Notes: generated by a model not told the origin, from the sequence alone. A stretch of 64,000 nt of DNA from Haloglomus litoreum (GCF_029338515.1 NZ_CP119988.1:4154001-4218000), one strand, 5' to 3'; shown: positions 48,972-55,287, counted from the first letter of the stretch. Made by a program: numbers and translations.

Positions 48972-49256
48972 TCAGGGGTCGTCGTCATCACTCGGTGGGC
49001 GCTTCGAGAGCCGATCGAAGCGGTCCTGCGCATCGTCGATTCGTTGCTCCGATTCCGCGGGTTTGTAATCCGCATCGACGAGTGCTCCGTCGGCAACCTC
49101 GATTTCGAGGACCGCATCCGCGTGCTGTGCTGGTTGCGGGAGGTCGTGCTGGTCGACGGCCAGTTCGTACCGCTCGTCCTCGCCCGCGACCTCCAGCACC
49201 GCCAGGTCGTCTTCGAAGCGATCCAGGACCGCCGTGTAGGTGCCATCGGGAATCAT
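48972..49256 (-). CDS. DUF3006 domain protein
   Basis: This 94-residue acidic protein of the DUF3006 type opens MIPDGTYTAVLDRFEDDLAVLEV and carries a beta-barrel-like first half and a charged helix EQRIDDAQDRFDRL. DUF3006 genes commonly follow ComEC/Rec2-like metallo-beta-lactamase genes in bacteria and archaea. Here the start overlaps that gene's stop by 4 bp. It is probably a partner or immunity-like modulator of the upstream secreted hydrolase. Confidence 0.8.
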   Translation of the reverse strand: MIPDGTYTAVLDRFEDDLAVLEVAGEDERYELAVDQHDLPQPAQHADAVLEIEVADGALVDADYKPAESEQRIDDAQDRFDRLSKRPPSDDDDP

Positions 49257-50677
49257 GAGTACGCCTCGTTGAGTACTGTTGACCCATCATCGTCCGTGAC
49301 GATGACCGTATCGCCGCCGTTGTTCCAAATCGGGCTGCCCGACCCCCAGTAGAGGTCCGTCTCCGTATCGGTCCCGCTCCCGGTGTGGATCGTGATCGTA
49401 GCGCCGGCCGCGAGCGTGGTGCCATCGGGGATGGTGTAGGTGGCGCCGGCCTCGTCGCTGAGCGTCCACCCCGACATGTCGAGCGGCCCGTCGCCGGTGT
49501 TCTCGAGGACGATGTACTCGTCGTTGAGATTGTCTCTGTCGCTCCCCTCGGCATCGGCGTGAACCGACGCGAGGGCGAGCTCACCTGAACCAGAACCTTG
49601 CCCCGTCGTGGTGGTCCCGCCGTCGGTGGCGACGGGTGAGGCCGTGCTCGTCGCGTCCACGACACCACCACCGCTGATGACGGCGCGGCGCTCGACCGCC
49701 GTCGTCGTTCCCACCTCGACGGGCGACCCATCACGGATACTCGTCGGGTCTGTCGGGGCCTCCTGCTGGGATGCGACCGTCACCTCGGTCCCGTCGCTCC
49801 GCAGGACGACGTGGCCCTGCGTCGCCGTCCAGTAGGCCGGGATCTCGCGCTCGGCCAGCCGCTGGAGCGTCTCCTCGTTCGGGTGGCCGTACCGCGAATC
49901 GTACGCGCTCGAGATGACGACCGCCTTCGGCTGGGCGGCATCCAACAGCGCCCCACTGGTCGAACTCTTGCTTCCGTGGTGGCCCGCCTTCATCACGGTC
50001 GCCCGGAGCTGCGAGCCGTACTGGTCGACGAGATACGCCTCCTGGTCGTCCTCGGCGTCACCGGTGAACAGGAAGCTCGTCTGGCCGTAGGTCAGCTTGA
50101 GAACGATGCTGTTCTCGTTGCGGGCCTCATCTTCGAGGTACGGCTCCGGCGGGCCCATGACCTGGACGCTGACGTTCTCGAACGGGATGCGGTCGCCCTC
50201 GCGGGTCTCATAGAGGGTGACCTCGTGGGCTTCGATCGCGTCGAGGTACTCGCTGTAGGTCTCGGTGCCGGCGGCGATACCGGGGTCGTAGACGGCGCCG
50301 ATGCCGTCGGCGTCGGTCTCGAAGTACTCGATGACGGCCGCGTTCCCACCGATGTGGTCAGCGTCGTTGTGGCTCGTGACGAGGTAGTCGATGCGCTCGA
50401 TGTTCTGTTGTTGCAGATACTGGAGGACGTACTCACCGTCGTCGTTGAAGTGGCCGCTATCGATGAGCATCGTCTCGCCTGTCGGGCCAACGACGAGCGT
50501 CGCGACGGACTGGCCGACATTGATGAAATGAACCTCGAGGGAGCCCTCGACCGGAGTGGCGTTATCCCCCGGCGGTGACTGTGGGCTGCTATCGCCGATG
50601 CCCGCTGGACCCGTACAGCCAGCGACGAGTACCAATCCAGCACAAAGGACGATGACAGCCCGGGCGGAGTGTGTCAC
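49253..50677 (-). CDS. ComEC/Rec2-like MBL lipoprotein with lamin-tail domain
   Basis: This 474-residue secreted lipoprotein has a signal and lipobox (VIVLCAGLVLVAGCTG). A competence-type metallo-beta-lactamase domain (about 46-295) has SHNDADHIGGN near 101-111, FTGDAEDD near 199-206 and GHHGSKSS near 227-234. A linker and a C-terminal lamin-tail domain (about 360-474, LNDEYIVLENTGDGPLDMSGWTLSDEAG) follow. The catalytic domain resembles the nuclease-like part of ComEC, and lamin-tail domains often accompany extracellular nucleases. A surface DNA-processing role would suit a DNA-transfer element. Confidence 0.85.
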   Translation of the reverse strand: MTHSARAVIVLCAGLVLVAGCTGPAGIGDSSPQSPPGDNATPVEGSLEVHFINVGQSVATLVVGPTGETMLIDSGHFNDDGEYVLQYLQQQNIERIDYLVTSHNDADHIGGNAAVIEYFETDADGIGAVYDPGIAAGTETYSEYLDAIEAHEVTLYETREGDRIPFENVSVQVMGPPEPYLEDEARNENSIVLKLTYGQTSFLFTGDAEDDQEAYLVDQYGSQLRATVMKAGHHGSKSSTSGALLDAAQPKAVVISSAYDSRYGHPNEETLQRLAEREIPAYWTATQGHVVLRSDGTEVTVASQQEAPTDPTSIRDGSPVEVGTTTAVERRAVISGGGVVDATSTASPVATDGGTTTTGQGSGSGELALASVHADAEGSDRDNLNDEYIVLENTGDGPLDMSGWTLSDEAGATYTIPDGTTLAAGATITIHTGSGTDTETDLYWGSGSPIWNNGGDTVIVTDDDGSTVLNEAYS

Positions 50678-50993: not shown

Positions 50994-51321
50994 ATGACTA
51001 ATGCAACATTCGCAAGTGAGGATTGGTGGAACAGCTATCAGAACGTCGTAGAGGCGGACCCCGAAATGACACTCCACGGCCGGGATGCGTTCGAGACGAA
51101 CTTCGTCGTCGCCATCGGCGAGGATAACCATCTCATCGAGATGCACGAGGGGACTGTCGAGGACGTGCGCACCCCGGGCCTGGATGACGAGTGGTCGTTC
51201 ACCATCGCGGGGAGTCGTGACGCGTGGGAGCGGTTCATCGAAGAAGTGCCACCGCCGCATCACAACGAACTGTTCGCCTCCTTCTACCGGAACGCTGTGA
51301 AGGCCGAAGAGGGGTATTTCG
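50994..51321 (+). pseudogene. 5' part of split SCP2-like/alpha-beta hydrolase gene
   Basis: These 109 codons encode an SCP2-like domain (SEDWWNSYQNVVEADPEM, FVVAIGEDNHLIEMHEGTVE and WERFIEEVPPPHHNELFASF). Translation runs into the insertion and stops after GYFGLC at 51332. The codons continue in the same frame from 54248 once the 51322-54247 segment is removed: Y-F then D-I-I-G-N-H-K. The restored gene would be 1368 bp (455 aa). A small truncated SCP2 protein could still be made. Confidence 0.8.
51314..51321. repeat. Target-site duplication, left copy
   Basis: GTATTTCG immediately precedes the left terminal repeat; the same 8 bases follow the right one at 54240-54247. Confidence 0.8.
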
Positions 51322-51373
51322 GGCTCTGTTGAAATCCTCAGAGAGTTACAGGACCGAGCAGTAGTTTGACCGA

Positions 51374-52231
51374 ATGCAGGCCCTCCCGAAGTCTCGGTTG
51401 CTCCGGTTCGTTGAGCAGGCGTATCACTTTGCTCGTCGAGCAACCGCTCGATACTCTTCGAAGTTCTCGAAACGACGGTACACACTCCACCAACACATCG
51501 TTTTACTCTGCCTCAAAGTCCGGAAGAACACGACGTATCGGATGCTTCTCGACGAACTCATCGAGATGCCTCGGATTCGACGTGCCATCGATCTTGAAGA
51601 ACTCCCCTCTCCTTCGACGTTGTGTAAAGCGTTCAACCGGCTCAATATGGCTGTCTGGCGGGTTCTCCTCAACCTCTCCGTTACGCTTCTCCCGACCAAC
51701 GGTATCGTCGGGATCGACGCCTCCGGATTCGACCGCAGTCATGCCTCAAAACACTACACGAAGCGAACGAAATTGACGATTCAGCAGTTGAAAGTCACGC
51801 TTCTCGTAGACACGAGAGCGAACGCGATTATCGACGTACACGTGACGACGACACGGAAACACGACTCGCAAATCGCACCGTCGCTCATCAAGCGAAATAC
51901 CGACGAAGTAGTTGTTCTCCTCGGAGATAAAGGGTACGACGACCAGAAAATTCGAACGCTTGCCCACGAGCAGGATGTTCGTCCGCTCATTAAGCACCGC
52001 ACGTTTTCGTCGCTCCACAAGGCGTGGAACGCTCGGATCGACGCCAATCTCTACGGGCAGCGTAGTCAGAATGAGACGGTAAACTCTCGGCTCAAACGCA
52101 AGTACGGTGCCTTCGTCCGGTCACGACGCTGGTGGAAGCAGTTCCGTGAGCTCGTCATCAAATGCGTTGTTCACAACGTGGAACGCGCCCTCGCAATTTC
52201 AGGCGATGAGTACGAGCGTCTGGGATTCTGA
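51374..52231 (+). CDS. IS5-family DDE transposase
   Basis: This 285-residue basic transposase has an N-terminal DNA-binding region (SRLLRFVEQAYHFARRATAR) and a DDE core. The first aspartate is in GIVGIDASGFDRSHASKHYT (near 114-118), the second in LLGDKGYDD (near 183-191), and the glutamate in NETVNSRLKRKYGAFVRSR (near 235). The length is normal for haloarchaeal IS5 members and no frameshift is seen, so it may be active. The start is 53 bp inside the left terminal repeat. Confidence 0.88.
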   Translation: MQALPKSRLLRFVEQAYHFARRATARYSSKFSKRRYTLHQHIVLLCLKVRKNTTYRMLLDELIEMPRIRRAIDLEELPSPSTLCKAFNRLNMAVWRVLLNLSVTLLPTNGIVGIDASGFDRSHASKHYTKRTKLTIQQLKVTLLVDTRANAIIDVHVTTTRKHDSQIAPSLIKRNTDEVVVLLGDKGYDDQKIRTLAHEQDVRPLIKHRTFSSLHKAWNARIDANLYGQRSQNETVNSRLKRKYGAFVRSRRWWKQFRELVIKCVVHNVERALAISGDEYERLGF

Positions 52232-52422
52232 GAGGAGCGGACTGCTGAATAGAACGGGTGCTGGTACCGACGTCGGATCCCGTATCGGTGAACCCACTGG
52301 TTGGGCCGGGGTGGAGCATGTACCGAATACGGGGCCGAGAGATGATGCGTCCGCGAACGGTGGTCGAGAACACGAGGCAATCAGTAGCAGGCCTTTACAA
52401 GTGGAAGCCCAAGGTATAGACA

Positions 52423-53079
52423 ATGGCTACTGAAGCGACGTTCACGGTTCCGTCAGACCAGTTCCCGCTGGGGACAATTTTCAAGCAACTGCCGAACGTG
52501 ACGGTCGAGCTGGAGCGACTCGTCCCCGCACAGGAGGTGGTGATTCCCTACTTCTGGGTGCGGGGAACCGAAGTCGACAACATCGTGGGCGCGTTCACCG
52601 AGCACCCCGGCGTGAAGGAGATTCGGCTCGTCGACTCCGTCGAGGACGAGTACCTGTTACGCGTCGAGTGGACGACAGCCTACGACGACGTGCTAACCGT
52701 ACTGGCCGAGACAAAGGTTCCACTGATCGACGCCACCGGGACAAACCAAGAGTGGACGTTCGAAATCCGCGGCGACGATCGAAGTGACATCTCCGCATTC
52801 CAACGACGGTGTCGAGAGCTGGACATCCCGGTCACGCTGGCGGCAATGCACGCACTCACACCCGTCGAGAAGGAGACCGAAGCCGTCCTCACGAACACCC
52901 AGCTAGAGGCACTGGTCCTCGCCTACGACCGTGGGTACTTCGAGTCGCCCCGCGAGGTCACGCTGGAAGCCCTCGGTGAGGAACTCGGCATCTCACAGCA
53001 AGCCGTCGGCTCCCGTCTCCGGGGAGGGATCAAGCAGGTTCTCGGCAACACGCTCTCCGCTCTCACAGTCCGACCCTGA
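52423..53079 (+). CDS. Bacterio-opsin-activator-type HTH-10 regulator (insertion cargo)
   Basis: This 218-residue protein has a sensor-like N-terminal region (about 1-150, with RLVDSVEDEYLLRVEW) and the conserved C-terminal HTH-10 domain: LTNTQLEALVLAYDRGYFESPREVTLEALGEELGISQQAVGSRLRGG (about 154-200). This is the haloarchaeal Bat-like regulator class. It lies inside the insertion, 190 bp after the transposase, in the same orientation. It may control the cargo or chromosomal genes. A second family member is at 62613. Confidence 0.85.
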   Translation: MATEATFTVPSDQFPLGTIFKQLPNVTVELERLVPAQEVVIPYFWVRGTEVDNIVGAFTEHPGVKEIRLVDSVEDEYLLRVEWTTAYDDVLTVLAETKVPLIDATGTNQEWTFEIRGDDRSDISAFQRRCRELDIPVTLAAMHALTPVEKETEAVLTNTQLEALVLAYDRGYFESPREVTLEALGEELGISQQAVGSRLRGGIKQVLGNTLSALTVRP

Positions 53080-53177
53080 GTGAATAGAAAACTGGCTTGT
53101 ATATCATAAACCCATAATGCTAAGTTGCATATGAAAGGTGGTTTGGGGGATTTGCATGTACTAGCCCAAGTATTGTC

Positions 53178-53188
53178 TGTACATGAAA
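53178..53188 (+). repeat. TGTACATGAAA repeat, copy 1
   Basis: First of two identical 11-bp direct repeats, 28 bp apart start to start, in the AT-rich region before the DUF7344-like gene. A third, partial, inverted version (gcatgtac) lies at 53154-53161. Possible operator sites. Confidence 0.4.
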
Positions 53189-53205
53189 TACATTCAAGGG
53201 AGGTT

Positions 53206-53216
53206 TGTACATGAAA
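53206..53216 (+). repeat. TGTACATGAAA repeat, copy 2
   Basis: Second copy, about 40 bp upstream of the ATG at 53256. Confidence 0.4.
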
Positions 53217-53255
53217 AAGTCAGCGTGATTCCTCTTGGGTGTTTGTGTTAGGATA

Positions 53256-53549
53256 ATGAGTACAGATTCAGCATTCGAGGCACTCACGCACGAACAGCGC
53301 CGTACACTCTTGCTCGCTCTTCTCGAATCGAATCCGCAGGAGGCAGGGGTTGCGTCACTCACAGGAAAATCAGAGCTGACTGACGCCGAGCAACGAGAGC
53401 AGATCGAAATGTTTCACGTTCACTTGCCAAAGCTCGAAGACTACGGCTACATCGAGTGGAACAAAGAGACAGATCAAATCATCAAAGGGCCGCAGTTCGA
53501 CGAGATTCGGCCATTGCTCGAATGTATCGCGTCCAACGATGCGGAGTGA
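53256..53549 (+). CDS. DUF7344-like winged-helix protein (insertion cargo)
   Basis: This 97-residue protein opens FEALTHEQRRTLLLALLE, the typical start of haloarchaeal DUF7344/ArsR-like domains. It continues FHVHLPKLEDYGYIEWNKETDQIIKGPQFDEIRPLLECI, a recognition helix and wing. Such proteins act as small transcription regulators, often beside HTH-10 or HalOD1 genes, as here. Two upstream direct repeats may be its operators. The ATG at 53256 is preferred over the upstream GTG. Confidence 0.75.
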   Translation: MSTDSAFEALTHEQRRTLLLALLESNPQEAGVASLTGKSELTDAEQREQIEMFHVHLPKLEDYGYIEWNKETDQIIKGPQFDEIRPLLECIASNDAE

Positions 53550-53600
53550 CGAAGAAGAGATGATGGCTTTCGTAGGCGTAGTCGCATACCCACACTATAC

Positions 53601-53843
53601 ATGAGTCCGTCATCTCCCACTTCATCAGCCAATGCGTGGAGCCACGCCGTAATCGAGGCTGTCGCCAAGGAGATGGATGTTCACCCCACTGAACTGCCCG
53701 AGAAACTATACGACGTGGTCGACCCCGGCTCATTAGATTCGTTGTTCGCAAACAAAAACCCGACAGCCGGCACTGTGATGTTCACGTACTGCGACTACAC
53801 AGTCACTGTCACCGCAAACGGCGACGTGAGTCTCGAAAAATAG
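53601..53843 (+). CDS. HalOD1 output-domain protein (insertion cargo)
   Basis: This 80-residue stand-alone HalOD1 domain reads WSHAVIEAVAKEMDVHPTELPEKLYDVVDPGSLDSLFA, then GTVMFTYCDYTVTVTANGDVSLE. It has the same architecture as the protein at 34882 but different sequence. It lies 51 bp after the DUF7344-like gene, so the two may be co-transcribed as a small regulatory module. No enzymatic site is present. Confidence 0.8.
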   Translation: MSPSSPTSSANAWSHAVIEAVAKEMDVHPTELPEKLYDVVDPGSLDSLFANKNPTAGTVMFTYCDYTVTVTANGDVSLEK

Positions 53844-53847
53844 CGGG

Positions 53848-53970
53848 TCATCCGGCGCTACGACACCCCCAGAGACGGACCCCCGTCCCATCGCCACACG
53901 CGCCCTCGATGCCGTCGTCCGTCTCGCATTCGTCACGCAGCCACGTCTTCGCACTGGCAATCTCGGTATC
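53848..53970 (-). pseudogene. Possible C-terminal gene fragment in the insertion
   Basis: This 40-codon minus-strand stretch with protein-like order (ASAKTWLRDECETDDGIEGA then VRLWGCRSAG) ends in TGA and has no start. It may be a gene remnant captured with the cargo. The family is unknown. Confidence 0.25.
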
Positions 53971-54217
53971 TCATCCTGGTTGGCAAGTAGGCATATCCCG
54001 GGGTTCTTGTCCTGTTCGTCTATATCCCCTTATTCGTCGCCGTCGTCTGAAACAACTGGGAGGGTCACAAGCCCATTCTAACAGTTGTTCAACGGTAAAG
54101 TTGAACTTCGATCACTGGGTCCTGCTGAGTACACCTCTGTACGTAACACCGAGTGCCGGAAAGTCACGTGATCGACGCTTCCTCCTCTATTCAGCGCGGG
54201 TGCTGAAACCTATCATC
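53971..54217. other. Non-coding right part of the insertion
   Basis: This 250-bp stretch has no gene. It holds a perfect 7-bp inverted repeat GTTCAAC-N6-GTTGAAC (54087-54106) and a TTCAGC/GCTGAA hairpin (54189-54203). The 10-mer tctattcagc at 54187-54196 is the reverse complement of the sequence at the possible IS right end near 52246. Confidence 0.5.
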
Positions 54218-54239
54218 GTTTGATGGTTTCAACAAGGCC

Positions 54240-54247
54240 GTATTTCG
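54240..54247. repeat. Target-site duplication, right copy
   Basis: GTATTTCG directly follows the right terminal repeat and continues into the hydrolase coding frame. Confidence 0.8.
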
Positions 54248-55287
54248 ATATCATCGGCAATCACAAGGCCGTCTTCCAGAACTTCCGACCGCTCCAGCGT
54301 GCTCTCGACCTGATGCGAACGACGGAGAACGGCGGGGAGCCACGAACGGAAGGCTCCACCCGGCCGGTCGAAGCGGAGAAAGGCGACGTGACCGGTCAGT
54401 ACGTCACGGTCGAGTTGGACGGAGTCGGCCACCGGATCTACTACGAGGCCGCCGGGCCGGAGGATGGGATTCCGCTGCTCTGCCAGCACACCGCCGGCTG
54501 TAACAACCAGCAGTGGCGCCACGTCCTTCGCGATGAGGAGATCACCGAGCACTACCGGGTCATCGCCTACGACCTCCCGCGACACGGGAAATCGGTTCCC
54601 CCCTCCAGCGAATCATGGTGGGCCGAACAGTACGACCTCACGGCCGAACGGTTCACCGACACCATCGTCGGCATCGCCGACGCACTCGACCTCGAGGACC
54701 CCGTGTTCATCGGTTCGAGTATGGGCGGGACCATCACGCTCGAACTCGGTGACTGGTATCCCGAGCGGTTCCGGGCCCTCATCGGGTTGGAGGCAGGCCT
54801 GTTCACGCCCGGCTACTACATCCAGTGGCTCGACCATCCCCACGTCAACGCGAACGACATCATCTCCCATGCGACGTGGGGGCTGATGGCTCCCCACTCA
54901 CCGGAGTGGGCTCGTCGGGAGACGCTCTACAACTACGAGCAAGGGGCCAACGGCGTCCTCAAGGGCGACCTGTACTACTACTCGATGGAACACGATTACC
55001 GGGACTCCGCGGATGACATCGACGCCACGGAGACGCGAATGTATCTCATGAACGGCGAGTACGATTACCTCACGAACCCCGACGACGCTCGCGAAGCGGC
55101 CGCAGCAATCGGCGACGGCGCGACGGCCCATGAGATGAAAGCCGTCGGGCACTTCCCGATGGCGGAGGGGCCGGGCCTCTTCCGGGCCTACATCAAGCCG
55201 GTCCTCGACGACATCCGTGGCGTCCGGGACGAGCCCGTTCCCGAGGTCCTCCGGCCGGAGGATTTCGGACTCGAGGCGAATCGATAG
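54248..55287 (+). CDS. Alpha/beta hydrolase, 3' part of split SCP2-hydrolase gene
   Basis: The first 30 codons (DIIGNHKAVFQNFRPLQRAL) complete the SCP2-like domain begun at 50994. After a linker comes an alpha/beta hydrolase with the oxyanion stretch HTAGCNNQQW, nucleophile motif FIGSSMGG, and the histidine in AVGHFPMAEGP; the acid is probably in EYDYLTNPDD. The hydrolase domain is complete. ATG 54223, inside the insertion's right end, is in frame and could restart translation, so the domain may still be expressed without its N-terminal SCP2 part. The intact gene likely hydrolysed an ester in the chromosomal catabolic neighbourhood. Confidence 0.75.

Follow-up and report, generated by a model that had tools for sequence, protein, structure and literature searches.

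A passenger-carrying IS5-type transposon with a three-gene regulatory cargo interrupts a hydrolase-type gene in Haloglomus litoreum

Within the window, the whole 64-kb stretch of Haloglomus litoreum DNA analysed here, a hydrolase-type gene is interrupted by a segment encoding a transposase and three small regulators, which raises the question of whether this segment moves as one transposon or is a simple insertion sequence (IS) to which unrelated genes were added. The segment occupies positions 51322-54239 (2918 bp), has IS5-type ends and lies between exact copies of GTATTTCG, an octamer whose only two + strand copies in the window start at 51314 and 54240 and directly abut the ends of the unit (Table 1). 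The terminal repeats, GGCTCTGTTGAAATCCTCAG and GGCCTTGTTGAAACCATCAA, agree at 15 of their first 20 positions. The exact target duplication, the imperfect repeats and the gene content between them had all been proposed by the first-pass annotation, and the transposase and the three regulators (HTH-10, DUF7344-like and HalOD1) are each supported by Pfam.

When the unit and one octamer are removed, the host gene becomes an open frame of 454 aa, in agreement with the earlier prediction of an in-frame rejoining to 455 aa. Among 194 sampled class genomes, the gene was found uninterrupted and without stops, as a single gene of approximately 454 aa, in about seven (no fewer than six) other haloarchaeal genomes (G005, G168, G143, G193, G025, G107 and G091 have full-length homologues), with 78-81% identity to the joined window gene over nearly its full length; the two gene parts are not separate in these relatives. 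The homologues run unbroken through the junction (EGYFDLIGNHK), four aligned ones reading E(E/G)GYFDLIGNHK(K/T)IFQNFR where the joined window gene reads EEGYFDIIGNHKAVFQNFR. Of the SCP2-hydrolase fusion originally suggested, the C-terminal alpha/beta hydrolase stands (PF12697, 2.6e-15 on the ORF at 54220-55287) and the SCP2 label is not supported: the N-terminal part gave no Pfam match, and none to SCP2 even at E=1. The unit is inserted into this hydrolase-type gene, duplicating 8 bp. The upstream neighbour (49253-50677) encodes a metallo-beta-lactamase-fold protein with a lamin-tail domain, which is probably exported.

Table 1. Features of the transposable unit and of the interrupted host gene (window coordinates).
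Feature	Position	Strand	Basis or remark
5' part of interrupted hydrolase-type host gene	50994..51321	+	Start ATG at 50994; in frame with 54248-55287
Left 8-bp target duplication, GTATTTCG	51314..51321	.	Exact copy at 54240-54247
Left terminal inverted repeat, GGCTCTGTTGAAATCCTCAG	51322..51341	+	15/20 against right end; nearly all relatives have the same left end
IS core module	51322..52254	+	Common to cargo-bearing and differently loaded relatives
IS5-type DDE transposase, 285 aa	51374..52231	+	Intact frame; PF01609, 2.1e-15
Cargo block	52255..54134	+	Orientation as here in H. limi, N. caseinilyticum and G274; G028 has it inverted
Passenger 1, BAT + HTH_10 transcription regulator, 218 aa	52423..53079	+	PF15915, 4.3e-17; PF04967, 1.8e-15
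Passenger 2, DUF7344 (winged-helix-like) protein, 96 aa	53259..53549	+	PF24035, 2.4e-8
Passenger 3, single-domain HalOD1 protein, DdfA-like, 80 aa	53601..53843	+	PF18545, 7.5e-22
Right-end module, about 106 bp, terminal inverted repeat last	54134..54239	+	Shared as q2813-2918 with G028 and G056, there arranged differently
Right terminal inverted repeat	54220..54239	-	Reads GGCCTTGTTGAAACCATCAA on the - strand
Right 8-bp target duplication, GTATTTCG	54240..54247	.	Exact match to left copy
3' part of interrupted host gene, alpha/beta hydrolase domain	54248..55287	+	N-terminal part continuous in homologues

No second right end was found within 4 mismatches over 52150-54300, the only match being 54225-54239, and there is thus no hidden 0.93-kb IS in the window; the possibility raised by the first-pass annotation, that an IS of that size alone would prove to be the mobile unit, therefore finds no right end near 0.93 kb. 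With q denoting positions within the unit (q1-2918 spans all of it), locus L008 has only q1-939 in common with the unit, and a breakpoint lies at q932/934 in genome G028. The occurrence of CGGGTGCTG at both cargo edges was considered as the duplication of a second insertion and dropped, as the inverted G028 copy sets the breakpoints at q932-935 and q2813-2815. The interval 51322-54239 is one transposable unit, consisting of an IS5-type transposase module and a three-gene regulatory cargo, set between the left end of the element and the sole right end that it has. The unit occurs once in the H. litoreum genome, where no other close transposase was found and other end-like sites are unpaired by a duplication, so that comparison within this genome is not possible.

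The transposase scored 218 bits against the NCBIfam IS5 model NF033579 (cut-off 140), and the unit combines this DDE transposase with the 15/20 inverted repeat and an exact 8-bp duplication, a length also seen in its paired relatives. A target duplication of 8 bp is that of the ISH1 group of the IS5 family, whose ordinary members are compact single-gene units. Like ISH1-like haloarchaeal IS, the unit has an NF033579-type DDE transposase, short inverted ends beginning GGC and an 8-bp duplication, but with 2918 bp and three further genes it is not compact (the smallest paired relative is 1160 bp), and it is therefore an IS5-type transposon rather than a plain IS. BAT/HTH_10, DUF7344 and HalOD1 genes, unrelated to transposition, lie between the ends of a single IS, as in transporter IS, while the intact transposase separates the unit from the transposase-free MIC type, which its relatives L113 and L115 match in make-up. 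We file the window unit as an IS5-type passenger-carrying transposon. By comparison, a 46%-identical IS of the same genome (L131), with ATTCAAGA on both sides, has 938 bp and lacks the three additional genes. Repeated segments were also observed in the genome of the window (G000:C1) near 3258203/3300585 (42 kb apart) and near 1223285/1323024 (100 kb apart), the former pair including a 938-bp related IS with ATTCAAGA flanking both sides of both copies.

A copy of the whole unit with a different 8-bp duplication, as the first-pass annotation would have it, lies on a plasmid of Natrinema caseinilyticum, where the entire q1-2918 is found within 2900 bp at 91.3% identity, has an exact duplication of ATCTAGCC on both sides and is annotated as IS5 transposase, HTH protein, hypothetical protein and HalOD1 protein. 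Near-complete copies are present in Halogeometricum limi (92-93%), in G274 (locus L106), where an IS605-type TnpB insertion interrupts the transposase, and in G028, whose cargo block is inverted and whose transposase is damaged. The TnpB/IS605-type gene, at 10484-11773 of L106, probably leaves the G274 transposase dead unless helped in trans. Matched duplications were absent around the H. limi and G028 copies, which may therefore have been moved or reshuffled by recombination. Judged by the two different exact duplications, GTATTTCG in the window and ATCTAGCC in N. caseinilyticum, on unrelated replicons, the unit appears to have inserted as a whole at least twice. The transposase region of the window is 97-100% (about 99%) identical to the H. 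limi, N. caseinilyticum and G274 copies, identity to these three over 52322-53400 is 57-96% and mostly below 90%, and the right third is back up to 94-100%, whereas the three copies are mutually about 91-100% identical throughout. On this pattern, the window copy, or its ancestor, is read as a mosaic whose cargo middle was exchanged for a diverged allele, a sign of recombination between element copies, and some copies may owe their cargo to gene conversion rather than to joint transposition.

The cargo frames are open in all copies of the unit, and their dN/dS values (0.26-0.61 overall; 0.26-0.40 for passenger 1 against the other copies and 0.31-0.55 for passenger 2 between copies), although noisy in such short genes, suggest moderate constraint. 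The HalOD1 passenger scored 67.5 bits against the NCBIfam DdfA model NF053557, just under the cut-off of 70. Haloferax volcanii requires DdfA to form disks (PMC10869688) and to respond to a density signal in shape and motility (PMC12240190); the passenger is also a small HalOD1 protein but falls below the model cut-off and resides on a mobile element, and a role for it in shape or quorum sensing is putative. Chromosomal HTH_10 relatives in G045 and G078 have CTGTACGTAACAC upstream, as passenger 1 does, without an adjoining element end, and in free chromosomal relatives of this gene a different DUF7344 gene often comes next. The DUF7344-HalOD1 pair of the window is closest to the pairs of L115 and of a distal module in L106; the cargo thus seems to have been put together from two sources. 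At L110, L112, L114, L118, L119 and L120, a BAT/HTH_10 gene precedes a DUF7344 gene and paired IS ends are absent around them; the two are possibly a conserved regulatory pair.

A transposase scan yielded 80 haloarchaeal loci; of 116 class genomes sampled, 46 have a close transposase, and relatives were not found in viral contigs or phage records. Within 1.18 Mb of loci, an exact octamer was common to 47 end pairs, compared with 6 of 15,531 random cross-locus pairs, a low rate of chance matches. Thirty-five transposase-bearing relatives have an exact 8-bp duplication flanking the end pair and measure 1160-5124 bp (median 1614), against a family transposase that ends near 870 bp; two of the 35 (L042 and L043) look like one insertion in two records. 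One further end pair (L039) has a single mismatch in its duplication, and a matched pair is missing in over half of the relatives read. Most duplication-matched relatives contain an additional 0.3-4 kb, which frequently includes genes, and recognisable passengers, both regulators and enzymes, are present in nine or more duplication-bounded relatives: RibD_C (L007), HTH_10 + hydrolase (L029), DUF7344 (L033), SnoaL (L038), DUF1801 (L039), a methyltransferase (L045), BAT + DUF7344 (L046), CNNM/CorC (L068) and a Mac acetyltransferase (L081). In members that have an end and no matched duplication, the passengers are PALP, PS decarboxylase, TrmO and TrmB + AsnC. Regulators account for 4 of the 11 passenger genes identified in the transposase-selected, duplication-bounded relatives, a proportion that looks high as a raw count without a background rate.

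Similarity to the cargo, rather than to the transposase, identified L113 (1519 bp, duplication ACAAGTCC), which carries BAT/HTH_10 + DUF7344, and L115 (2910 bp, duplication TCCCTTCC), which carries AsnC + DUF7344 + HalOD1 and an ORF of unknown type; neither has a transposase. Members of the family differ in what lies from the transposase stop to the right end, and at times beyond the left end; this interchangeable DNA often includes genes, and the family also has transposase-free gene carriers. The earlier view of a transposon that moves regulatory cargo thus holds, whereas cargo as such is not unusual in this IS group. Public annotation names these elements only 'IS5 family transposase', so that the cargo boundaries are missed. 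Elements of about 140 bp with GGCCTTGTTTAGACGC ends were observed in the genome of the window (L130 3678-3818 and L134 1612-1752) and probably form a separate MITE family; the GGCCTTGTTTAGACGC motif also occurs near 6900 in L008, after the IS core in Haloferax larsenii.

Three loci suggest a route of cargo capture through the use of distal ends past an intact proximal end. The duplication ATTCTTTA in L106 flanks the left end and the farther of two right ends, which lies 1.9 kb past the intact first one, and the element so bounded takes in an additional AsnC-DUF7344-HalOD1 module. In both L064 and L077, the right end is matched through the duplication to a distal left end, and the transposase-proximal left end is intact. 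For single cases of this type, nested insertion followed by loss of the inner duplication is an alternative. We propose that the transposase may act on any suitably oriented GGCYYTGTTGAAAYC end pair within a few kb and would thereby carry along the DNA that separates the core from a solo end or MITE nearby. Alternative ends could come from the end-only elements, 125-647 bp long, that occur in the same loci. Recombination between copies that have cores and ends in common would then swap and invert the cargo, and the regulator genes may be retained for being expressed and for the effect on host signalling that their domains suggest.

The mosaic identity, showing that recombination did replace the cargo middle in the window copy or its ancestor, could also be accommodated if a plain, cargo-free IS had hit the hydrolase gene and the cargo had arrived later by a second insertion or by recombination among copies of the IS, in which case the 2.9-kb unit would never have transposed as such; the inverted G028 cargo block and the H. 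limi and G028 copies without matched duplications would likewise fit. This account is nevertheless improbable, given that the whole unit stands between two different exact duplications on two unrelated replicons, that a right end near the core is absent and that copies from several genera agree in core end, cargo and right end. Still more remote, to the point of being negligible, is a composite transposon in which two separate IS copies flank and co-move the regulators: there are end-like repeats on both sides, but the unit has a single transposase and a single end of each type, left and right, and a second IS copy, sought at the right (54134-54239), was not found, so that this structure was rejected for the window.

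The DNA between core and right end might instead be chance-caught, decaying flank with no role, similar to Pack-MULE-type gene-fragment capture. Several relatives have extra DNA without a recognisable gene, and positions 3428-3988 of L105, in a 1518-bp paired relative, hold only a C-terminal amine oxidase fragment, that is, a captured gene fragment. We nonetheless consider this rather unlikely, in view of the window passengers, which stay open in every copy under the dN/dS values given above, and of the full-length domains in many relatives (RibD_C, SnoaL, Mac, PALP and PS decarboxylase). Taken as a whole, and as far as sequence comparison can tell, the best explanation is, with high probability, a transposon that moves as a whole unit and belongs to a family with interchangeable cargo, which end choice and recombination would shape and in which regulators may be retained.

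Carriage of passengers by a single IS is best known from bacterial IS231. The IS231/MIC231 elements of Bacillus cereus (IS4 family) vary in length, have passengers between an end and the transposase and include MIC231 cassettes; in 2008 no other IS family was said to have shown this modularity, perhaps because it had not been looked for systematically (PMC2266710). The present family similarly comprises transposase-bearing elements that vary in length and carry passenger genes, as well as related transposase-free cassettes; it differs in its IS5-type transposase, its haloarchaeal hosts, its cargo mostly downstream of the transposase and its 8-bp duplications. The unit works like these bacterial modular elements, with an IS5-type transposase in archaea. 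Haloarchaeal MITEs have IS-like ends and target duplications but no transposase and are thought to be mobilised in trans; four of five families surveyed in Haloquadratum are non-coding and shorter than 500 bp, only an ISH2-type element having a likely coding ORF (PMC3119063). L113 and L115 are likewise transposase-free but carry two and three recognisable genes, respectively. Hlac_3088 of Halorubrum lacusprofundi has been called a transposon passenger gene (PMC10544981); it is also haloarchaeal but a single case, likened here by its description. The literature searched (ISfinder and most subscription papers, including a 2007 archaeal IS review, lay outside it) contained no description of this family with cargo.

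We tentatively suggest, as a possibility short of an even chance, a class-wide haloarchaeal IS5-type gene-capture system that tolerates alternative ends and loads, swaps and spreads small signalling regulators (BAT/HTH_10, DUF7344, HalOD1/DdfA-like and AsnC) across species, with the result that host control of, for instance, cell shape or density sensing is rewired. The presence of the unit at other sites in other haloarchaea, together with relatives that carry different genes, marks a widespread natural gene shuttle. Passenger carriage as a habit of this IS5-type group suggests that archaeal genes also flow by a route so far unappreciated, and with small regulators as frequent cargo, one of them near a cell-shape and quorum-sensing factor, the spread of regulatory circuits by transposition becomes testable.
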